The notes below the pieces were generated by a model. The model was not told the DNA's origin and made no database searches. It saw nothing but the letters and a program-made list of their open reading frames with translations. DNA of 64,000 nucleotides from Magnetococcales bacterium (GTDB lineage Bacteria > Pseudomonadota > Magnetococcia > Magnetococcales > DC0425bin3), in assembly GCA_015228935.1 (NCBI GenBank), contig JADGCO010000001.1, positions 1 to 64,000 of the forward strand. The letters are read 5' to 3'. Below are positions 9,712 through 29,467 of this stretch, in pieces. Every line of letters begins with the position of its first letter. The stretch's first letter is position 1. Position numbers and translations under genes: made by a program.

Positions 9712-10575
9712 ATGAATCAATTTTGTTGCCACGGAATTGCAGGAATGCTGCTGGTCATTGCCGGATTGCTCGCGCCGCTGTCGATTCTCCGTGCGACCGA
9801 AGGGAGTGATCTCGCCAACATTCTGCCGGGCCGCCTTTTTACCACCCCGGAAAATCGGCAGATCCTGGATCGATTGCGGCGGGGAGAGCGTGTTCCCAAG
9901 CCGGTTCTGCTCCGGAAAAAAGAGACTGACGGGGCAGATCAACCGAAAACCGCTGCCCCCGGCGAACCGATCATTCAGGGACCGCGCTTCCTTACCGTGA
10001 GTGGTCTGGTCCAAAAACGTGATGGGAGTTTCGTGGCATGGCTCAACGGCAAAAGTTTTGATCTGGCAACCGGCATGACAGGTGAAGGGTTTGTCGTGTC
10101 ACCGACTCGTACTGCTGTGGAAGAGATTGCCATTCTGTTGGAGGACCATGCAACGCCTTTCCTGCTGAAGCCCGGCCAAACCCTGGATGCAGACCAGAAA
10201 AAGATCGACGACAGTTTTCGAATTCCGGAACGGGTGCGCCAGTTGGCCCAGCGTGGCAAGCCCCTGCCTGTCATCCCTGTTCCTGATCCATCCGCAGTTG
10301 GCACACGGAATGAAAAGCACCCGGACTCAGAGAAGACAACCCAAAAAGCGGATGACTCCGGCAAGAGTGCAGAGACAAATTCCAGGAATGCTCATTCCAC
10401 CGGGACAACGCCATCTGGTACAAAAAAGGCCGGCAAGGAGATGGATCCCGACCAGGAGCTGGAACCGGACAAAATATTTGACCTGGCCAAAAAGGTCAAA
10501 AATGCCGGGAAAGGTGGTGGAATCAAGGGCCTGCTGGATACGGCCACGGAGGTGTCGCGTGCGGTTGGCCAATAG
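9712..10575 (+). CDS. PilP/MshK-like periplasmic pilus protein
   Basis: 287 residues from ATG 9712, five bases after the previous stop. A signal peptide or anchor (about 8-27) is followed by 'LFTTPENRQILDRLR' and a small beta-rich segment ('VSGLVQKRDGSFVAWLNGK'), the pattern of MshK and related PilP-like proteins that contact the secretin. The last ~90 residues are a charged, Ser/Thr/Lys-rich linker ending in a short helix. The longer frame from 9664 overlaps the upstream gene and is less likely. Confidence 0.65.
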   Translation: MNQFCCHGIAGMLLVIAGLLAPLSILRATEGSDLANILPGRLFTTPENRQILDRLRRGERVPKPVLLRKKETDGADQPKTAAPGEPIIQGPRFLTVSGLVQKRDGSFVAWLNGKSFDLATGMTGEGFVVSPTRTAVEEIAILLEDHATPFLLKPGQTLDADQKKIDDSFRIPERVRQLAQRGKPLPVIPVPDPSAVGTRNEKHPDSEKTTQKADDSGKSAETNSRNAHSTGTTPSGTKKAGKEMDPDQELEPDKIFDLAKKVKNAGKGGGIKGLLDTATEVSRAVGQ

Positions 10576-10609
10576 AGAATCACGACAGAATGCTGTTGAG
10601 TCGAAACCC

Positions 10610-11335
10610 ATGGCCATGAAGTCGGCACGAGGATCCATGGCGTCGGAACGTGGAGCCGTCATGCTCCTGACCCTGACGGTCCTGGTGATGGCGGGACTTT
10701 CCTTTGCCCTGGATGCCCTGTTGATCAAGAGTTCCCGGGTTCGGGAAGATGTGCGGGCATTTCAGGTTTTGTCGCAGGCCAAGGAGGCATTGATCGCCTA
10801 TGCGGGAGCTTCAGATCGGACCAACAACCTGGGGCGTCTCCCCTGCCCCTTTCTCGGCAACATCAGCAATTATGATACCGACGGCACAGCAGCTTCCGAG
10901 TGCAATGCCGTGACCGGCGTGGCGGACACTGTCAATTCTTTTGGATTGTTGCCTTGGAGTACCCTGGGATTGGCTCCATTGCGCGATGGCAGCAACTCCC
11001 CCATTCTGTACGCTGTGGCAGGGCGCTACAAAAGGGGATCCAGCACATCCATCCCGCCCTACCCTGCCGGTAACCTGACCCTGAACAACAATTCGGGAGA
11101 TTATGTGGCATTTGTCTTTGCCCCCGGCAACCCGCTCTCCACCCAGACCCGGGTTCTCAACGATACGGCGGCCAATCAGCAGGCGCAGTTTTTGGAGAGA
11201 CGTGCCGGCATCACAGGTGATTTTGAATTGGCCAAGATTGATGTCAACAGTACCACCCCGGCGGCCGATCGTTACAATGATCGGGTTCTGGGTATCAGCC
11301 AGAATGATTTGATCTATGCTGTCACCCGGAATTGA
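10610..11335 (+). CDS. PilX/MshP-like minor pilin-associated protein
   Basis: 241 residues. It begins with a short basic segment, 'SERGAVMLLTLTVLVMAGLS', which has the form of PilX/GspK-like proteins (a charged or small-residue start then a long hydrophobic helix), followed by a globular exported domain with one 'CPFLG' cysteine and 'FGLLPWSTLGL', a motif recurring in the pilin-like proteins here. It terminates in a one-base overlap with the next gene (TGATG). Alternative ATG starts at 10616 and 10637 are possible. Likely a minor subunit at the pilus tip or in initiation. Confidence 0.6.
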   Translation: MAMKSARGSMASERGAVMLLTLTVLVMAGLSFALDALLIKSSRVREDVRAFQVLSQAKEALIAYAGASDRTNNLGRLPCPFLGNISNYDTDGTAASECNAVTGVADTVNSFGLLPWSTLGLAPLRDGSNSPILYAVAGRYKRGSSTSIPPYPAGNLTLNNNSGDYVAFVFAPGNPLSTQTRVLNDTAANQQAQFLERRAGITGDFELAKIDVNSTTPAADRYNDRVLGISQNDLIYAVTRN

Positions 11336-13104
11336 TGCACCACGGATATTTTAACGTTGCGGAGGCAGCAGGAGCCGAAATCATGGAGCCGATCTCCTCA
11401 TTCCAAGCCGGGCGTCATCTTTTCCGGGCCATCTGGCGGCGGATTCGCGGCTTTTCGCTGATTGAAATTTCCGTGGCGATTGCCGTTGTCGGTCTGGTGG
11501 GAGGATCGGCGGTGGTGACCGTAAACATGCAACGGGAAAAAACCCAACGGGACAAAACCAACATTTCACTGGAACGGATCAAAGAGGCTGTGAAATGGTA
11601 TGCGGTGGCGCAGGGCTACCTGCCCTGTCCGGATACCGATTTCGATGGGGTGGAAAATGTCACCGGCGGGGCTTGTGACCAGCAGTTTGGCTTGCTGCCA
11701 TCTGTAGACCTGGGTTTGCAATCTCCGGATCCAGCAGGCAATCGGATTGCATATTATGATCCCTGGGGCAATCCGTTTACCTATCATGTGTCGCAGTTTT
11801 ACAGTAACAGCAACTCGCCCATCAGGGGAACGACCAATGGGGATTTGACAGTTTTGAGCCGAAATCCCGACGGAAGCAACACCACCCTGGGAAGTGTCTA
11901 TCCGGTGGTGGTGGTTTCGCATGGACGGAACGGCTACGGTCACTACAAACGCAACACCATGTCTTTGGAACGGGATCCTGTAGACCCCAGCACCATCAGC
12001 AACCCAGCCGAGCGGGAAAATGCCAATGATGACAATACATACATGGTTGGCACCGGCGATGATATTGTGTTCTGGTTGTCATCCCTGAATCTGAAAAATG
12101 AAATGACTACGGCGGGAGTTACCCTCTCTACGGTGACAACGACTTCGACAACGACTTCGACGCCGACGACATCGACGGCTCCAACGACCACCACGTCGGC
12201 TCCAACGACCACCACGTCGATTTCAACGTCCACCACTTCGGTCCCAACGACCACCACGTCAATTGAAACAACCACGTCCACAACCACATCGACATCCGTA
12301 GCAACGACATCGACTTCAACTTCGACTTCGACTTCGACTTCGACTTCAACTTCGACTTCAACATCCGTGCCGACGACGACCTCGTCAATTTCGACCACCA
12401 CATCGGTGCCAACGACCACCACATCGGCCCCAACAACCACCACATCGGCTCCAACGACCACCACATCGGTCCCAACAACCACCACATCGGTTGCGACGAC
12501 CACCACATCGGTGCCAACGACCACCACGTCGGCCTCAACGACCACCACGTCGGTCCCAACAACCACCACCTCCGTGCCAACGACCACCACGTCGGCATCA
12601 ACGACCAGCACCACGTCGGTATCGACCACATCCACATCCAGCGTTGCGGCGTCTGCCGGACTGCTCTTTACCGGCAGCAACTACAACTGTTTCGGTAACA
12701 GACCCACCAGCATGAACTCCTCGACCGGGGATGCCCGGTTTGTGAGAGGAGACAGTGCCAGGGCCGACAATCCCTGTCTTGTCTTGCCTGCGGCCAATCC
12801 GACGTATTTCTTTACCAGCTTTACAGCATCCGCAGGCCTGACTGGAACCAACGAAATTGAAATCCGGCCCGAGAATGGTTTTGGTTCCATCACCTGCCGG
12901 TTCAGTTTCACCAGTGCCGGAACAAGCAGTTGCAGCGGATATTCAATCACCATCACCAAATCTTCCGCTGCATCCGGGACGATCAAGGTCAACTTCGGAA
13001 ACAAAAACATGTCCAGTTTGAGCAGGCTGGAAATCAAGATCAACGATCTGAGTTCCAGCTATATTGATTTCAAATACATGTGCATCGGAACCTGCGGTCA
13101 GTAA
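11335..13104 (+). CDS. Minor type IV pilin with Thr/Ser stalk and Cys-rich tip domain
   Basis: 589 residues. A prepilin leader ends at 'RG', then 'FSLIEISVAIAVVGLVGG' forms the type III signal with Glu5, processed by PilD. A pilin-like head follows ('LPCPDTDFDGVEN' is shared with the paralogue at 28637-29467). Then come about 175 residues that are almost purely Thr, Ser, Pro, Val and Ala in a TTTTS-x-P pattern (bases 12124-12645), and a ~145-residue C-terminal domain with four or more cysteines. The layout, with a rigid mucin-like spacer carrying a terminal domain, suggests an adhesin displayed on the pilus. The stalk is a possible O-glycosylation target; this last point is inference. Confidence 0.8.
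   Translation: MHHGYFNVAEAAGAEIMEPISSFQAGRHLFRAIWRRIRGFSLIEISVAIAVVGLVGGSAVVTVNMQREKTQRDKTNISLERIKEAVKWYAVAQGYLPCPDTDFDGVENVTGGACDQQFGLLPSVDLGLQSPDPAGNRIAYYDPWGNPFTYHVSQFYSNSNSPIRGTTNGDLTVLSRNPDGSNTTLGSVYPVVVVSHGRNGYGHYKRNTMSLERDPVDPSTISNPAERENANDDNTYMVGTGDDIVFWLSSLNLKNEMTTAGVTLSTVTTTSTTTSTPTTSTAPTTTTSAPTTTTSISTSTTSVPTTTTSIETTTSTTTSTSVATTSTSTSTSTSTSTSTSTSTSVPTTTSSISTTTSVPTTTTSAPTTTTSAPTTTTSVPTTTTSVATTTTSVPTTTTSASTTTTSVPTTTTSVPTTTTSASTTSTTSVSTTSTSSVAASAGLLFTGSNYNCFGNRPTSMNSSTGDARFVRGDSARADNPCLVLPAANPTYFFTSFTASAGLTGTNEIEIRPENGFGSITCRFSFTSAGTSSCSGYSITITKSSAASGTIKVNFGNKNMSSLSRLEIKINDLSSSYIDFKYMCIGTCGQ
12124..12645 (+). repeat. Tandem Thr/Ser-coding repeat (mucin-like stalk)
   Basis: Degenerate ~15-18 base units of the type ACGACCACCACGTCGG(T/C)(G/T)CC repeated about 25 times, with an inner run of ACTTCG hexamers near 12314-12360. 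All units keep the reading frame. Copy number could vary by slippage without frameshift, changing stalk length. Confidence 0.9.
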
Positions 13105-21500: not shown

Positions 21501-22559
21501 ATGAAAAAAAATGTCGTAAATGATAAAAAATGGCAATACCTGAAAAGAATTGCCGACAATCCGACAGGTTGGATCATCCTGTGCAACCTTCTGGATGGCA
21601 TGGACCAAAGACTGTTCAAAAAAAAATTTGCTGTAGCCCTGCTTCTCTGCTGGATGCGGGCATATAAGCGGCAAAAGATAAATGCCCGGCAATCTGGTCA
21701 GTCACCTTTTACGCCACCTTCCGAGGCAGATATACTCCGGGACAGTTTTGACACTGCCTGCGGGTCTCCTGGCAACGGTGTATCCTGTTCCGAATGGCCG
21801 GAAGGGTTCCGTCTTCACTGCAAACGCCGCCTGCCTGGAAAACCACCCATAGACAGATATGCCAGTATCACCGACGCCAGGGACTTTGTTGAAGAAAGGA
21901 TCTCCCCTGATGAAAAGGTGCGACTTTCCGGTGAAGCGTGGTTGCACGGAATTTTGGACCCGGATCCGGCAACGTGGGATTCCTGGAGGCCTCTCGGCAA
22001 AACCAGGATTCGTTTGAAACTCCAGGACGCAAACGGAAATGCCTCTACCATTGGCAATCCAGCCAAGGTGCTTTGGATAACTCCAGAAGATGAAACCGTT
22101 GAACTCAGGAAACATCCCCGGCCTGCAAATAAACTGCGCGATCTTCTCGGCCTGGTGCATGTTTCCAACAGTCAGCTTCTGGCCTTGAGTCTGCCAAAAG
22201 CGGTGGTACAAAAACAGGATCATGGCCGCCCCACTGTGGCCGATGCCGGCAGCCATCGGCGGCACATGGCCCACTCCAGCCATCGAACCAGCGGAACCAC
22301 CAATCCCTGGGGTTATACAGCCAATCTGGCTTCATTTGCCGCCAAAGAAATAAACATTGACGGACTGCCTGAACGGGTGGTTCGGCCCATTCCCGTGGCA
22401 AGCCTGCCCGAATTGGATGTACAGGCCCTTGGTTTCTGTGGTCCGGAACGAGGCATTGAGCAGGGAATCGACGATGATGCAATTTTTGCCAAAAGATTGT
22501 GTCAAAGACATGGTGGTATCCCACAAATGATGGAACGGATTCGGAAGTTGCTGGCATGA
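21501..22559 (+). CDS. Unknown protein, first gene of three-gene cassette
   Basis: 352 residues, no family recognised. No signal peptide; the N-terminus is basic and helical. The middle holds 'DARDFVEERISPDEKVRLSG' and a beta-rich stretch with 'KTRIRLKLQDANGNAST' and 'VLWITPEDETVELRKHP'; a His-rich region near residues 244-268 ('HRRHMAHSSHRTSG') could bind metal. Its stop overlaps the ATG of the next gene (ATGA at 22556), so the pair is translationally coupled. The low GC start relative to neighbours suggests transfer. The position among nuclease remnants makes a conflict or defence role worth testing. Confidence 0.6.
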   Translation: MKKNVVNDKKWQYLKRIADNPTGWIILCNLLDGMDQRLFKKKFAVALLLCWMRAYKRQKINARQSGQSPFTPPSEADILRDSFDTACGSPGNGVSCSEWPEGFRLHCKRRLPGKPPIDRYASITDARDFVEERISPDEKVRLSGEAWLHGILDPDPATWDSWRPLGKTRIRLKLQDANGNASTIGNPAKVLWITPEDETVELRKHPRPANKLRDLLGLVHVSNSQLLALSLPKAVVQKQDHGRPTVADAGSHRRHMAHSSHRTSGTTNPWGYTANLASFAAKEINIDGLPERVVRPIPVASLPELDVQALGFCGPERGIEQGIDDDAIFAKRLCQRHGGIPQMMERIRKLLA

Positions 22560-23620
22560 GACAAAATTCAACAAAACCCGTCGATCCCTGGGATGAGCCG
22601 GAAGAGTCATGGGAGATAGGAGCTGCTCCAGTATCAAACCCTGGACCGCCCGAATCCAATCCAGCCGGAATTGAACGATGGCTCCACACAGGACTGCGTG
22701 GTTACCTCATGGATGGGTGGGGTTCCCGGGCTTTCCCTGGAGCGGAAGCGATTGTTGATCGCCACGACTCTCTTGCCGCCGCCTTGAAGGCGTTTTACAA
22801 CCGCCAGGATTCGCAAAGACAGGCGGATTTTCGCCAGGCGACGGCCAATCTCCTGGCCACCCTGGAACGTGTGCCTGAAAATCTGCCTTTATTTCAACGA
22901 ATTTTGCAACTGGCCGTGCGTCTTCCCGCTCCGGAAATATTTCCGGTTCTCGCCTTTCGCATTCGGCAGGGTTTCCTGCTTCGATGGCCCGACAAGGATG
23001 CGGAAACTCTCTTTACCGAATCCATGCTGGCTGTTTCCCAGCTTGCCGCGCCTCGTTCGGATGCCTTACCATGCCTGAACGAGTTGATCCAGTCTCCATC
23101 CTTCGCTGCCCCCTATCCGCATGCGGCCACAGCCCTGATTGCCTTGAATCGGATCCAACCCGATCAGTTTGTCGCTCATATGAACCGGCTGCGTCCCATG
23201 TTGAACCGTCAGTTCTCCCATTACAGGGTAAAACAAGACCAACAACGTCAATTGGCTGTCGCGCTGCTTGCTGCCATAGGACCATTGCAACTCCTGGAAG
23301 GATTGATCACCCTGAAGGGTCAGACAGACCGGGAAACAGCCCTTGCGCAGGATCATTGGCTGATGCAGGCCCTTTTTTCAAGAATGAATGAAGATATTCC
23401 TGTTCTGGAATGCCGGGAGGAACCCCATGCAGAAATATTGGAATTCTTCTTGCGTAAAAGTCCTGACAACCCCATCCATCCAAAAATGGTACACAGCCTG
23501 GGGTGGTCAAGATTCAAAGGGACTCTTGTAGAACAGGATTGGTTTACAAAACAAGCCATGCCCAGCCAGACCAGTGCAAATATTTTATCCATCGTAGAAA
23601 GAAAAAAACGGGCCGCATAA
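22556..23620 (+). CDS. Unknown all-helical protein, second gene of cassette
   Basis: 354 residues from ATG 22556, coupled to the upstream stop by a 4-base overlap. After a Pro/Glu-rich, probably disordered start ('PVDPWDEPEESWE') the protein is almost entirely predicted helix with HEAT-like alternation ('LLATLERVPENLPLFQRIL', 'AVALLAAIGPLQLLEGL'). No catalytic motif, signal peptide or membrane helix. A scaffold or regulatory subunit for the other two products is the simplest reading. The frame starting at 22499 is the same frame extended into the upstream gene. Confidence 0.6.
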   Translation: MRQNSTKPVDPWDEPEESWEIGAAPVSNPGPPESNPAGIERWLHTGLRGYLMDGWGSRAFPGAEAIVDRHDSLAAALKAFYNRQDSQRQADFRQATANLLATLERVPENLPLFQRILQLAVRLPAPEIFPVLAFRIRQGFLLRWPDKDAETLFTESMLAVSQLAAPRSDALPCLNELIQSPSFAAPYPHAATALIALNRIQPDQFVAHMNRLRPMLNRQFSHYRVKQDQQRQLAVALLAAIGPLQLLEGLITLKGQTDRETALAQDHWLMQALFSRMNEDIPVLECREEPHAEILEFFLRKSPDNPIHPKMVHSLGWSRFKGTLVEQDWFTKQAMPSQTSANILSIVERKKRAA

Positions 23621-23636
23621 AAAAGGGATCAGGATC

Positions 23637-26096
23637 ATGACCCATTTTAACGAACAACATCGGAAACTTGCCGACCTGTTCCAGGAAGCCGCCCGGCAAC
23701 GGCAGTTGATGGAACCCTGGCTTGATGACCAAAAATTCTCCGATGATCAAAACGGCCAGATATGGTATGCCATCGACACAGATATTGCCAAGCTCTATCT
23801 GCTTCCAGAAGATATGTCAATCTCCCGTATCCCTCAAGATGGTATCTCTGGAGATGGAGCAGGGCCACGGGATGGATATGCCGAAATATTTCCAGGTGAC
23901 AACTCGGACGAAAGCAGCAAAACATCCACCATCGCATTGGGCCAGGCCTTGGCCAACCATATTTTTTTCCACATCACTGGACCGGTACCCATGGCGGTAT
24001 TTCCTCCCACCCGGGAAGAGTTGCGCCGGGTCTATCTGGGCATTGCCAGGGATGCCGACCTGGAACAAATAAAAGCAACGGATGAATTGCAACAACTCCA
24101 ACAAATTTATGCAGGTTTGTCCGGGGTGGCCGATGACAACCTGCGCCGGGAACGGTTGGCACAAAATGCCCCCAACATCAATTCCATTCTCTTCGGATTG
24201 GGAGCCAACAGGGAACTGTTGCGTTTTTCCTATTTGCTGGACCGGCAACGCATGTCTGGAATTGAGGATTTGGCAAACAATCCGGATGCCGTTCGTTTGG
24301 GCTTCCCTGCTGAAGCATTCTCTGAACCCGATCAGGTGGCTGAAAAAGTTTCATTCGGCCTTCTCAAAGAACAATGGTTTGTACGCCTTGAAGAGGAATT
24401 CATCCAAAGAACCGGCGTGAATCAATGTGACATATTTCAGAGAATTTTGAACCAATTTGACAGCGATGCCGAACTCTTGGCCTGGATCGAATGGACCAAC
24501 AAGCATCTGAAAAATACCAGACATCGTCTGGTCCTGCTAACCGGTTCCATGCAACTGTTTCGCGTCGCCAGCAGACACAAACATGACTTGCAGGGCACGC
24601 AACCTGAAAAATCCTTTGCAGATCTCTACCTGCGCCATCCCAGGGCCTACCTGGCTGAACCGGACGTGTTGTTCCCCTCTGTCGATGAAGCCTCTCGGAG
24701 TGACGATCAAAAGGAACACAAAAAAAAGCGCTTTTTGGATTGGCTGGATACTTTCTTGTCCCATTCCAAGGGATATGATCCCGACGAAGGCGACCGAAAA
24801 AAATTGGAAGAAGCCGCACGGGATGCCTTGGAAACCCAACCCAACCTGTTGGGGGATTTTCAGAAACGCTGGGATGAATACCGGTTTTCGGTACAATTGG
24901 CTCACCCTTTCAGTGATCCGTCGTTGAAAAACACCTCTGCATCCCATGCCAATCATCAGAAACTCCAGCGGCTTTTTGCCGCCACGCAAGACCTGGATGA
25001 TTTGCGTCAGGGACTCAAGGCCCTGGTAGATGAACAAATCGAGACCAACTGGCAGGCGTGCTTCAACATGGCCACCCTGGCCGGCTACAGTCTGCTGTTT
25101 CAGCGTATGCGGGGCACCGAAATACCCACCCAAAACCCGCCGCCCATCTATTTCGGCAGCCTGCCGGAGGCAAGGCAATTCATCATGAAACTGCCTTTCT
25201 TGACCCTGATCCAACAAGCCCGGGAAAAGAATGAAAAACTGGATGCCGTAAAATTTCATCAAACCTTGACTGCCCTGCGCCTGGAGGATCCCTCTTGCTA
25301 CACCTACCACCTGGGATTTGCCACTCTCTTTGCCATGGAAGGGGCATGGCCAGTCGCCAACATTCAAGCCAAACGGGCCTATATCATCGCAGAACGCAGG
25401 GATGACGAACATATCACAGGTCGGGAAGCCGCCTACATGCAGGCCGTGGCTGTCCGACGCAGTGCAAAACATGTGACCGATCTGTTGCAGGTACGAAAAC
25501 ACCTGGATACCGCCAGAGAGTGCCTGAAGATGGATCTGAACCGTTTATCTCCAACCATCACCACAGCACTCCGTTTTGACGCAGAAGACCTGGCCTTGAA
25601 TGTTTCTGCGCACCTGTTCAGAATTTTTTGCGATGAAAAAATACCGGTCGAATTAAACGTTCTCTCCCTGCAAGAGACCGAAGCATTATTCAAGGAACTG
25701 ATCCGTTCACTGCATGATCAATATTCAACAGAAGACATATGGGTCATTCGCCATGTGGAACGAAAACTGATCACCAACCTGTTGATGGCAGCCCTGTTGC
25801 AGCAAAAAGAAACTCCCGAATCTGTGCCATCCTCCGACTATCGACCCTGGGTCGAACGCCTGGAAAAAAGCATCGAAAACAAACAGGAGGATATCGTCCC
25901 TGTCAAAGTGACCTTCCTGATCCGCGCCATCGTGCTGGCAACCAACTGGTGGACTACAGAGGATAAACAGAAACGCAAGGAATCTGCCAAAGAATTAAAC
26001 CTTCAATTGACCGACCAGGCGATCAAAGACAAATTCCGTTCCATGCTGCCCTATGATCGTCGGCGCTACCAGTTTTTGCGTGATTTTGTCAATTGA
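23637..26096 (+). CDS. Large cytoplasmic protein with PIN-like N-terminal region, third gene of cassette
   Basis: 819 residues. The N-terminal ~340 residues have the order of a PIN-like nuclease with an insertion: 'WYAIDTDIAKLYLLPE' (D47, D49), an acidic helix 'DSDAELLAWIEWTN' near 274-287, and 'RLVLLTGSMQLF' near 297-308, where canonical PIN domains have TGD; then 'LRHPRAYLAEPDVLF'. The last ~450 residues are helical and TPR-like. The PIN reading is inference at moderate to low confidence, and the Ser in place of the last Asp would weaken catalysis. RBS AAAAGGGATCAGG precedes ATG 23637. A hairpin at 26117 ends the unit. Confidence 0.6.
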   Translation: MTHFNEQHRKLADLFQEAARQRQLMEPWLDDQKFSDDQNGQIWYAIDTDIAKLYLLPEDMSISRIPQDGISGDGAGPRDGYAEIFPGDNSDESSKTSTIALGQALANHIFFHITGPVPMAVFPPTREELRRVYLGIARDADLEQIKATDELQQLQQIYAGLSGVADDNLRRERLAQNAPNINSILFGLGANRELLRFSYLLDRQRMSGIEDLANNPDAVRLGFPAEAFSEPDQVAEKVSFGLLKEQWFVRLEEEFIQRTGVNQCDIFQRILNQFDSDAELLAWIEWTNKHLKNTRHRLVLLTGSMQLFRVASRHKHDLQGTQPEKSFADLYLRHPRAYLAEPDVLFPSVDEASRSDDQKEHKKKRFLDWLDTFLSHSKGYDPDEGDRKKLEEAARDALETQPNLLGDFQKRWDEYRFSVQLAHPFSDPSLKNTSASHANHQKLQRLFAATQDLDDLRQGLKALVDEQIETNWQACFNMATLAGYSLLFQRMRGTEIPTQNPPPIYFGSLPEARQFIMKLPFLTLIQQAREKNEKLDAVKFHQTLTALRLEDPSCYTYHLGFATLFAMEGAWPVANIQAKRAYIIAERRDDEHITGREAAYMQAVAVRRSAKHVTDLLQVRKHLDTARECLKMDLNRLSPTITTALRFDAEDLALNVSAHLFRIFCDEKIPVELNVLSLQETEALFKELIRSLHDQYSTEDIWVIRHVERKLITNLLMAALLQQKETPESVPSSDYRPWVERLEKSIENKQEDIVPVKVTFLIRAIVLATNWWTTEDKQKRKESAKELNLQLTDQAIKDKFRSMLPYDRRRYQFLRDFVN

Positions 26097-26116
26097 CCTG
26101 CGTCCACCTTGAACCG

Positions 26117-26143
26117 AAAGGCTGTTTATCCTGGATAGCCTTT
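26117..26143 (+). terminator. Hairpin terminator after the three-gene cassette
   Basis: AAAGGCT (26117-26123) pairs with AGCCTTT (26137-26143), followed by AAAACTCTTTTTTG. Works for the plus-strand cassette; the T-run also touches the end of the minus-strand permease fragment. Confidence 0.5.
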
Positions 26144-26473
26144 AAAACTCTTTTTTGTGGATATCAATCAAGCCAACAACCGTCAACAGAAACAAATAGA
26201 TGACAGTTGTGATGCCATTAGCAAGAAGATCCCTGACCGAGCCGGTGTGATACACGAGCCAGTCGGTCACGGTGAAACGTTGCAGGCTGGGAAGAAACCC
26301 GGCAATGAAGGCCAGGGCCTGCTGGGCAGCCACATTGGTCCAATGGGGGTCGGCATGGGCGGCCGGCGGGCCAGCAGCAAAAAAGTCTCCATGGAGCGGG
26401 CCAGAAGATAAAAACCCGCCGTCAGGGTCAAGGCCAGGGTGGCGTGGGTGACGGATTGGGCGAGGAGCCTCCC
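26142..26473 (-). pseudogene. Duplicated 3' end of ABC permease gene, frameshifted
   Basis: About 330 bases nearly identical (roughly 90 percent by eye) to the 3' end of the permease gene at 27844-28635, sharing 'QRFTVTDWLVYHTGSVRDL' and the terminal 'LIDIHKKEF'. A one-base deletion relative to the full copy (GCGGCCGGCGG against GCGGCTTGGCGG) breaks the frame at 'LLLAR'. The homology stops abruptly near 26473. Not functional; useful as the footprint of a duplication or insertion. Confidence 0.8.
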
Positions 26474-26558
26474 ACATGGGCAATTCGCCGAAGCGGTACC
26501 GAGATAAACGGGCCAACATGAATAACTTGCTATTTCTTGCTCCATTTTTACGTTGAGA

Positions 26559-27530
26559 TTACGTCGTTCCGCCGCTCGCCTCGTTACCAAATACATCCTG
26601 CAACGAGTGGGCATCCATTGCCAGATCCGTCCACGCACGCAGCCTATCGAGATCCGATGCAAGCACCTTCGTCGCAACCCAGGTTGGCAAGTCGGGGAAA
26701 CGACGCTGGAGAATTTGCAGCAAAATAGCGGCTCCACCTTCTTGCCGCCATTCTTTTTGTTTCACGTCTCTCCAGGTTTCCATTCTGGTCTGTAACATGG
26801 ATGGCACCTTCAGCAAATCAATGGGGTTACCCGTTGGCAGAGAATTGTCGCTGCTTAAGACATTCATGGCGTTCAGGAGCATAGAGGCCAGAACCTGTCG
26901 CAGTTCTGCAAATTCCGGATGATGTTCAAGCCACGCAATGACAGCTTCTGCCAACATGGGCAGATCTTCTGGAGAGTGGCATTGCTCAACCCGGAACACC
27001 AATGCCGACATTGAATTACGTCGTTTCAGATCCTCAGTCAGGAAACGGCATTCATCAATCAGGAAAAAACGACCATTCGGTTGATATTTCCAGAGTGGCG
27101 AGCCATCAGGCAGGTCAATCAAGGCTTGCAAACAAACCGGTGTCAGCCAGGGAGTATCGCCATTGTGCAGTACCATAGGAAAGAGCGGTGGCAAAGGTCC
27201 CTGGGCCGGAATGCGTTTTTCGTGCAACAATTGGAGCCACAACAGGCACATGTACACGATCACGCGCAGGACCATCCACCGGTCTGACTTGGACTGTAAC
27301 TCCAGCAATACCAATAAATAAACATCGGATCCAGATTTGGTTGGAATGCGCCAGATGATATCACTGGTCCGTTTGGGCAACCCGGGTACCTGAAATTTGG
27401 TTTTGACAGGTTCCATCCTGGCCAAATCAAGATCCTGAACCCATGGTTCGGTCACAAACTGCTGCATCAGATCCGCCATCATGGCCGGATGCTCGTAGAG
27501 TTGATGGTAAAGACCGTCGTGATCCGTCAT
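26559..27530 (-). CDS. Rpn-family PD-(D/E)XK nuclease (recombination-promoting / transposase_31 type)
   Basis: 323 residues from ATG at 27530. Begins 'MTDHDGLYHQLYEHPAMM', characteristic of Rpn proteins, followed by the nuclease core 'RTSDIIWRI' (Asp) and 'LLVLLELQSKSDRWM' (Glu-x-Gln), then 'PVVL'-type and 'GSPLWKYQP' segments and a helical tail. Rpn proteins are DNA endonucleases linked to recombination and to phage defence. It sits between the full permease gene and its duplicated 3' end, in the same orientation, so it may have been inserted with a duplication of flanking DNA. It appears intact. Confidence 0.8.
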   Translation of the reverse strand: MTDHDGLYHQLYEHPAMMADLMQQFVTEPWVQDLDLARMEPVKTKFQVPGLPKRTSDIIWRIPTKSGSDVYLLVLLELQSKSDRWMVLRVIVYMCLLWLQLLHEKRIPAQGPLPPLFPMVLHNGDTPWLTPVCLQALIDLPDGSPLWKYQPNGRFFLIDECRFLTEDLKRRNSMSALVFRVEQCHSPEDLPMLAEAVIAWLEHHPEFAELRQVLASMLLNAMNVLSSDNSLPTGNPIDLLKVPSMLQTRMETWRDVKQKEWRQEGGAAILLQILQRRFPDLPTWVATKVLASDLDRLRAWTDLAMDAHSLQDVFGNEASGGTT

Positions 27531-27599
27531 TTCAACATACTCTTTGCATGGTCCTGGAATGCAAACAACTTCTGAAGTGTGCAGATGATATGGAGCCAA

Positions 27600-27843
27600 A
27601 CCAAGTTGAGGCTATTTCTCTGATTCTGGATTGTCCAGGATTTCACCCCTCCAGTCCATCGAAATCTGTCATCCTGATCCTGCCGGAATACCCGGACCTG
27701 GGTTTCGGGCAGGTAGTCCTGTCATCCTGGTTTGCCGAAGTACCGGAAGAATCGGGCCGAAATACCCGAAATTGGACCGGTATACCTGGAACCGGAATCG
27801 GGCCAAATGAGCCAACAGGTCAGGATCACATGCGCAAGACGGG
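27600..27843. other. Non-coding repeat-rich spacer
   Basis: Between the Rpn gene and the intact permease. It holds several scattered imperfect repeats built on CCGGAATACC / CCGAAATACC / GGACCGGTATACC and no coding frame that looks genuine. It probably contains the promoter for the minus-strand Rpn gene. Confidence 0.5.
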
Positions 27844-28635
27844 CTAAAACTCTTTTTTGTGAATATCAATCAAGCCGATAATCGTCAACAAAAATAGATA
27901 AATAACGGTCGTGATGCCGATGGTGACGAGGTCCCTGACCGAGCCGGTGTGGTACACGAGCCAGTCGGTCACGGTGAAACGTTGCAGGCTGGGGAGAAAT
28001 CCGGCAATGAAGGCCAGGGCCTGCTGGGCAGCCACATTGGTCCAATGGGGGTCGGCATGGGCGGCTTGGCGGGCCAGCAGCAAAAAAGTTTCCATGGAGC
28101 GGGCCAGAAGATAAAAACCCGCCGTCAGGGTCAAGGCCAGGGTGGCGTGGGTGATGGATTGGGCGAGAAGCAGGGAGAGAGCGGCGATCAGGGTCAACTC
28201 CCCGGCAAGGGTCATGCACCAGAGCCAGACCTGGCCAAAAGGGGCAAACGGGAGCAGGGCCAGGCCACTCACCAGGGCCAGGAGCAGAGCAGCCAGGGCA
28301 AATCCCCCCAGCTTGCCCAAAAACAGCACCGAACGCGGCAGGGGCAAGGCCAGGAGCATGTCGATTCCCCGGCGTTGAATGTCCCGGCTCACGGCAAAAG
28401 TGACCAGGACTGCCATCTGAAACACCGCTCCCAACCGCAACAAAAATCCCAGAATGGCAACCTGCGCCATTTCTGTTTCGATCAAAAACAGAGGGTCCAA
28501 ATAGACCGCCAACACCCAACCCAGCCCAATCATCAGGAGCGTGGTGCGGATCAGGCGTTCCCGTAACGCCTCTTGGAGGGTGAAACGGGCCAGGTGAAGC
28601 AGGGCGGACCAGACGGAAGGCATGGCAGGAAGCAC
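27844..28635 (-). CDS. ABC-2 type permease (NosY-like)
   Basis: 263 residues with about six membrane helices: cytoplasmic amphipathic start 'LARFTLQEALRERLIRTTLL', a loop 'SRDIQRRGIDMLLALPLPRSVLFLGK' typical of NosY-type permeases, and the terminal helix ending 'LIDIHKKEF'. It has no ATPase of its own next door; the ATPase at 14547 is the plausible partner, separated by the island. The start is GTG 28635, one base after the upstream stop, or ATG 28623. It is transcribed with the pilin-like gene upstream (28637-29467). Confidence 0.75.
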   Translation of the reverse strand: MLPAMPSVWSALLHLARFTLQEALRERLIRTTLLMIGLGWVLAVYLDPLFLIETEMAQVAILGFLLRLGAVFQMAVLVTFAVSRDIQRRGIDMLLALPLPRSVLFLGKLGGFALAALLLALVSGLALLPFAPFGQVWLWCMTLAGELTLIAALSLLLAQSITHATLALTLTAGFYLLARSMETFLLLARQAAHADPHWTNVAAQQALAFIAGFLPSLQRFTVTDWLVYHTGSVRDLVTIGITTVIYLFLLTIIGLIDIHKKEF

Positions 28636-28636
28636 A

Positions 28637-29467
28637 TCAAGGCAGTCGGCGGGCCTGCACCGTGCGAAATTTCAGGACCAGGGGTGAAATCCACATGACG
28701 ACATCGTCCCCGCCCCGGCTGAATGTACTGCTGGTGGCATCGAAGTTGGTTTGTTCCTCCAGGGTCTGGGCACCGGCGGTGGAAATCTGGTTGCCATTCA
28801 GGGTGAAAGCACCAAAGCTGTTGGCACCATGGGACATGAATACTGCCGGAATGCCGGTCGCAATCACTCTGCCGATGACCGGATTGGCCGAGTCGCGGGA
28901 ATCCCTGATGGTGATATCACCATCGGTCACCCCCGCCGGGCAGGTCAATGCAAAAGAAGAGGATGTCTCGGATGTGGCATTGGTGGGGGCATTGCAACCA
29001 TTATAGCTGTTCTGAGAAATATCATCGGCATACACACCGGTCACCTGGTAGGTGAACAGATGACTCCAGGGGTCCACGGGGGCGACTCCCAGGGTTCTCC
29101 AGGGAATAAATCCCCGGAACAGTCCACTGGCATTGGCGACACAGGTCACTCCCGCCGTTTGATTTTCCAGGCCATCAAAATCGGTATCCGGGCAGGGAAG
29201 GCGACCGTTGGCCAGGGCAAAACCAAATATGGACTCTTTGATTTCGACCAACTGGTCGTGGGTCTTTTCAGCGCGGCGTTTCAGGGACTGGGCATGGATG
29301 GCATTGATCGCCCCACCCAGCATCAGACCGGCAATCACCATGACGATGGCCATTTCGATCAAGGTGAAACCGGCAACGTTTCCCCGGATTGGCACAGAAA
29401 AACAGCCCAAAAATCCAGATATCTGCATACTTTTCCGGTTGCGTCTTCTTGTCGCCGACATGGGCAT
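28637..29467 (-). CDS. Minor type IV pilin-like protein
   Basis: 276 residues with a long leader and prepilin motif 'GNVAG' then 'FTLIEMAIVMVIAGLMLGG' (Glu5). The head shares 'LPCPDTDFDGLEN' and 'PW.HLFTYQVTG' with the minor pilin at 11335, showing common ancestry, but it lacks the Thr/Ser stalk and tip domain. Cysteines at the 'CPDTD', 'VTCVAN', 'YNGCNAP' and 'LTCPAG' positions suggest two disulfides. It is the only pilin gene on the minus strand and lies at the edge of the msh operon, consistent with an inversion. Confidence 0.75.
   Translation of the reverse strand: MPMSATRRRNRKSMQISGFLGCFSVPIRGNVAGFTLIEMAIVMVIAGLMLGGAINAIHAQSLKRRAEKTHDQLVEIKESIFGFALANGRLPCPDTDFDGLENQTAGVTCVANASGLFRGFIPWRTLGVAPVDPWSHLFTYQVTGVYADDISQNSYNGCNAPTNATSETSSSFALTCPAGVTDGDITIRDSRDSANPVIGRVIATGIPAVFMSHGANSFGAFTLNGNQISTAGAQTLEEQTNFDATSSTFSRGGDDVVMWISPLVLKFRTVQARRLP

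Follow-up and report, generated by a model that had tools for sequence, protein, structure and literature searches.

A three-gene cassette of no recognized family

Three adjacent, co-directional genes, here called A, B, and C, lie in the window (the whole 64,000-nucleotide stretch of DNA that was analyzed) at the positions given in Table 1. The stop codon of A and the start codon of B overlap in ATGA, and B and C are spaced by 16 nt. There is an alternative, longer start for B (GTG at 22499); homolog alignments begin at the ATG. The initial annotation had described the genes, with these lengths and the ATGA coupling, as a cassette of no recognized family. The coordinates and the overlap were confirmed, and searches of A, B, C, and their homologs against Pfam, NCBIfam, and PADLOC returned nothing significant. 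A PDB sequence-profile search of the cassette proteins likewise gave no match. The promoter and terminator that had been proposed for the cassette did not hold up. Promoter- and terminator-like matches were no more numerous than expected by chance (5 versus 3.8 and 9 versus 6.4 in shuffled sequence), and there were zero terminator-like matches downstream of C on the plus strand.

Table 1. Features of the cassette and of related loci; positions refer to the window unless a locus is named
Feature	Position	Strand	Description
Gene A	21501..22559	+	352 aa; N-terminal helical part and conserved C-terminal part; no family assigned
Gene B	22556..23620	+	354 aa; helical by inspection; no family assigned
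Gene C	23637..26096	+	819 aa; predicted N-terminal PIN-like domain with helical insert, then TPR-like helical solenoid
PIN motif 1, D47-T48-D49 (predicted)	23775..23783	+	D47 in 17/17 covering sequences; residue 49 is D in 15, N in 2
PIN motif 2, E128 (PPTREEL; predicted)	24018..24020	+	Invariant, 18/18; placed by hhalign on the conserved PIN Glu
Candidate PIN motif 3, D277 (DAELLAW)	24465..24467	+	Invariant, 18/18; DA..LA pattern
Candidate PIN motif 4, T302-G303-S304	24540..24548	+	Residue 304: D in 9, N in 1, S in 2, A in 6 (n = 18)
Duplicated permease 3′ end, copies 1 and 2	26143-26468 and 27845-28171		Match at 90-97%; flank the Rpn-type gene
Rpn-type gene	26559-27599		PF04754
Trio with permease and prepilin homologs	21501-29467		Near MSHA-type pilus genes
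Trio with permease and prepilin homologs	G043, L015 6353-14637		Near MSHA-type pilus genes
ADP-ribosylglycohydrolase next to A	G044, L013 14347-15372	same as A	PF03747; ends 24 nt upstream of A
C relic	G003, L014 6324-7343		Adjoins GspE/GspF-type genes
A plus extended B-like protein	L086 (G021:C31) 10013-12709		B-like protein of 521 aa; no C homolog found
FAD-variant operon	L031 6128-11275		Ruegeria plasmid; no ABC ATPase inside
FAD-variant operon	L029 1387-6610		Integrase island; no ABC ATPase inside

Most of the conservation in protein A falls in the C-terminal half, which contains the motifs LRD.LGL.H, RPT..D.G...R, WG.T..L, and DG..ER. A His-rich patch highlighted earlier in this protein is not conserved and reads RFK in relatives. 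The AF2 model of A was of moderate quality (pLDDT 66, and below 50 in the motif region 244-290), and with it no match at an E value of 0.001 or less was found among PDB or viral folds. The earlier description of B as all-helical agrees with inspection of the sequence; the one HEAT_2 match was weak (E 0.039) and came from a single homolog.

A, B, and C form a conserved and mobile unit

The order A-B-C was constant at 13 full loci, with intergenic gaps of −35 to +45 nt. Across these loci, the pairwise protein distances of A, B, and C were correlated (r 0.91 to 0.97; Mantel p about 0.0002). A neighborhood search for conserved trios had been set in advance as a test of the cassette, and in it A-B-C recurred well beyond chance; it is nearly certain that the trio is a conserved unit. 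The 13 loci belong to Magnetococcia, an Acidobacteria MAG, Thiotrichales, Nitrospirota, and Alphaproteobacteria. Each of the three genes was present in 9 of 48 Magnetococcia genomes. Profile searches recovered one of the 13, a second, divergent copy of the trio in the genome that contains the window (G000:C51), and homologs in two other Pseudomonadota genomes. A contig scan of genomes added the Acidobacteria MAG, a Thiotrichales MAG, and Candidatus Magnetobacterium casense (Nitrospirota), together with a C fragment in Bacterium BMS3Bbin13 and a Zetaproteobacterium, and the trio of an Alphaproteobacterium came from a separate search. Phage records (P0006 query) and viral contigs (A4 query) yielded no homolog, and the only plasmid with one was from Ruegeria.

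The distribution of the cassette is patchy, neighboring genes vary between loci, and relics are present. The Acidobacteria trio was nested within the Magnetococcia trios, and G043, G044, and G046, species of one genus, were placed in separate clades, both of which argue for horizontal transfer. Profile searches with A and B recovered the same genomes as those with C, with two exceptions: in G003, a genome of the same genus, only C residues 531 to 818 are left, and G021 has A and B without C. One further locus (L030) has B and C without A. Constant gene order, correlated distances, signs of transfer, and losses together indicate a real, mobile, and dispensable three-gene unit.

At the G021 locus (L086), about 220 aa at the C terminus of the B-like protein have no counterpart in B; this locus is either a variant or a decayed copy of the cassette.

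Protein C has a probable PIN-like N terminus and a TPR-like tail

The initial annotation had recognized the residue order of a PIN-like domain at the N terminus of C. To examine this prediction, 18 C sequences with identities down to about 20% were aligned and compared with a reference profile built from the 29 PF01850 proteins collected in related genomes; 100 column-shuffled versions served as a control. The N-terminal region of C scored higher against the PF01850 profile than 100 of 100 shuffles. With the helical insert removed, which the match requires, the alignment spanned the domain and scored 24.2 with an E value of 0.0015, compared with at most 16.9 for the shuffles. In it, D47 was placed on the PIN Asp at the end of strand 1 and E128 on the conserved Glu of the region that follows. 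The positive control, PIN_8 against the same PIN profile, gave an E value of 0.0017, equal in significance to that of C, while the negative controls (A, B, and the C tail) gave E values of 0.26 to 0.73. Motifs 1 and 2 carried most of the score; that of motifs 3 and 4 alone was reached by 11 to 12 of 100 shuffles, and D277 aligned poorly. C did not match the profile of PIN_8, and none of 14 C members was matched by a Pfam PIN model at an E value of 5 or less. In the AF2 model of C (pLDDT 80), the order of N-terminal strands and helices is compatible with PIN, and N288 and R297 are also invariant in the alignment. Judged from the sequences, the N terminus of C is very probably PIN-like, and such a PIN-type domain would most likely cut RNA. 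Of the earlier reading, the PIN-like residue order of C is confirmed and conserved; the LLTGS segment, also cited then, is degenerate at the fourth acid, where the copy in the window has Ser304.

AF2 modeled the C-terminal region of this protein as a TPR-like solenoid, and the matches listed by Foldseek for the whole protein were helical-repeat proteins, including TPR structures, Pins/LGN, and kinesin light chain, none of them reaching an E value of 0.001. The model and these top matches support the TPR-like tail that had been predicted. B and the C tail were unrelated when compared.

Distant C homologs occur with an LmuA-like partner

In two distant C operons (L029 and the Ruegeria plasmid locus L031), the places of A and B are taken by an LmuA-like FAD protein (PADLOC LmuA, E 2e−47 and 6e−39) and a small protein of 264 to 296 aa, and the C homolog follows both. 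A and the small protein were unrelated. All three genes of the Ruegeria operon are annotated as hypothetical, and the operon adjoins genes for a HATPase protein, an Mrr-type helicase, and a PIN_8 protein. At L029, an LmuB-like ATPase is encoded about 4.6 kb from C, beyond the integrase. These loci support the location of distant C homologs in defense and mobile contexts. By eye, the small protein is possibly a degenerate trypsin-like protein without the catalytic Ser.

The trio in the window lies in similar surroundings to those first described, an island with Rpn nucleases and duplications: the PF04754 gene and the repeat that flanks it were both confirmed. At other A-B-C loci, the neighbors include genes for Rpn (L011), a DUF5906/D5 helicase (L016), a WD40 protein (L035), and Fic (L012). 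Some loci have ordinary neighbors, such as trmD/rimM/rpsP near L038 (by inspection) and an aminopeptidase gene at L012. The trios in the window and in G043 lie by the same permease and prepilin homologs, which suggests a shared insertion region. The genome that contains the window (G000) has 29 matches to PF01850 PIN proteins (VapC type) in 4.7 Mb, far above most of the relatives searched.

The cassette as a candidate conflict module

We consider it probable that the trio is a conflict module of three components that moves horizontally, in which C is the nuclease or sensor core and the partners can be exchanged. The conflict or defense role, argued from genomic context and the nature of the domain, is held with the same confidence. 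Of the earlier proposal of an undescribed conflict system, the conserved trio, the lack of a described family, and the defense and mobile contexts of C homologs have been borne out, and the role itself remains a matter of probability. The module would probably act against phages or plasmids. Its constant core, C, is predicted to be a metal-dependent nuclease of the PIN fold, most likely an RNase, whose TPR-like solenoid may sense a trigger or hold the partners; B, being helical, could serve as an adaptor or regulator, and A, from a new family, could act either as a partner enzyme or as a second effector. Upon infection, a putative A-B-C complex would be freed from inhibition, and the released C would cleave RNA, so that either the invader or the cell is blocked. 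More tentatively, the PIN-like/TPR-like core may define an undescribed immune-system family in which C works with either A and B or the LmuA-like FAD protein and the small protein, with A representing a new enzyme family.

It is unlikely, in our view, that C is instead an inactive PIN-derived scaffold that, with B, only senses and recruits while A (or the LmuA-like FAD protein) is the effector. The fourth PIN acid is absent in 8 of 18 sequences, including that of the window, and C stays constant while its partner is exchanged, as a scaffold might. However, the invariance of D47, E128, and D277 in proteins as diverged as these (about 20% identity) is easier to reconcile with catalysis than with a purely scaffolding role. 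These three are also concrete residues to mutate.

Less likely still is a large toxin-antitoxin-like module in which C is a PIN toxin held back by A and/or B. VapC toxins owe their catalytic activity to PIN domains, and the tight coupling of the genes and the richness of the genome in PF01850 proteins would suit such a module, but VapC has only about one-sixth the size of C, A and B resemble no antitoxin family, and both B and C without A (L030) and A and B without C (L086) exist. An accessory regulatory or RNA-processing operon with no immune role, linked for example to the MSHA-type pilus region, is improbable to the same degree: MSHA-type pilus/secretion genes occur close to the window and G043 trios, and GspE/GspF homologs adjoin the relic in G003, yet neighbors at most other loci are unrelated, the trio is scattered over several phyla with losses, and distant C homologs sit in defense and mobile contexts with effector-type partners.

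Comparison with known systems

In principle, conflict systems that join PIN and TPR parts to exchangeable effectors are already known. The closest published architecture is TPR-GreA/B-C-PIN of the EAD10 system, a single protein with a GreA/B-C domain and a C-terminal PIN (PMC8195603). It shares with the conflict module proposed here the combination of TPR repeats with a PIN domain and the recruitment of exchangeable effectors. In contrast, the PIN-like part of C is N-terminal, so that the domain order is opposite, and there are two further conserved genes, A and B; a Pfam search of C for GreA/B gave no match. The vWA-MoxR/VMAP ternary conflict systems have a constant component and exchangeable effectors, PIN among them (PMC7159879). 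The likeness lies in the three components and in the exchange of partners around a constant C. Unlike those systems, the cassette has no vWA, MoxR, VMAP, iSTAND, or recognized EAD domain; A, B, and C had no Pfam match to vWA or MoxR, and no NTPase was found in the trio.

The FAD-variant operons resemble the Lamassu/ABC-three-component systems in encoding a protein that matches LmuA, at positions 6 to 254 of 827. The match is limited to this N-terminal region, however, and no LmuB ABC ATPase lies inside the operons; the A-B-C trio itself has neither an LmuA match nor an ATPase. With PIN_8 (PF18476) and PF01850 proteins, C shares the acid order D-E-D, with D277 as the candidate third acid, and its match to the PF01850 profile is comparable to that of PIN_8 to PIN. 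It differs from PIN_8 and VapC-type PIN proteins in its long helical insert, TPR-like tail, fixed A and B partners, and absence of a Pfam PIN match.

No description of this architecture was found in the literature searched, and the cassette is not represented there or in the family libraries searched. Three unannotated protein families travel together across several phyla, and a PIN-like/TPR-like core is linked to an FAD effector region known from Lamassu. If the cassette defends its host, it would be a multi-gene PIN-based immune system that is absent from PADLOC as searched.

As to the chemistry of A, two structural matches to ADP-ribosyltransferases (Foldseek, E 5 to 7) were too weak and were rejected as evidence. 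In G044, the gene directly upstream of A encodes an ADP-ribosylglycohydrolase (Table 1). This neighbor and the nonsignificant Foldseek matches are a lead only.
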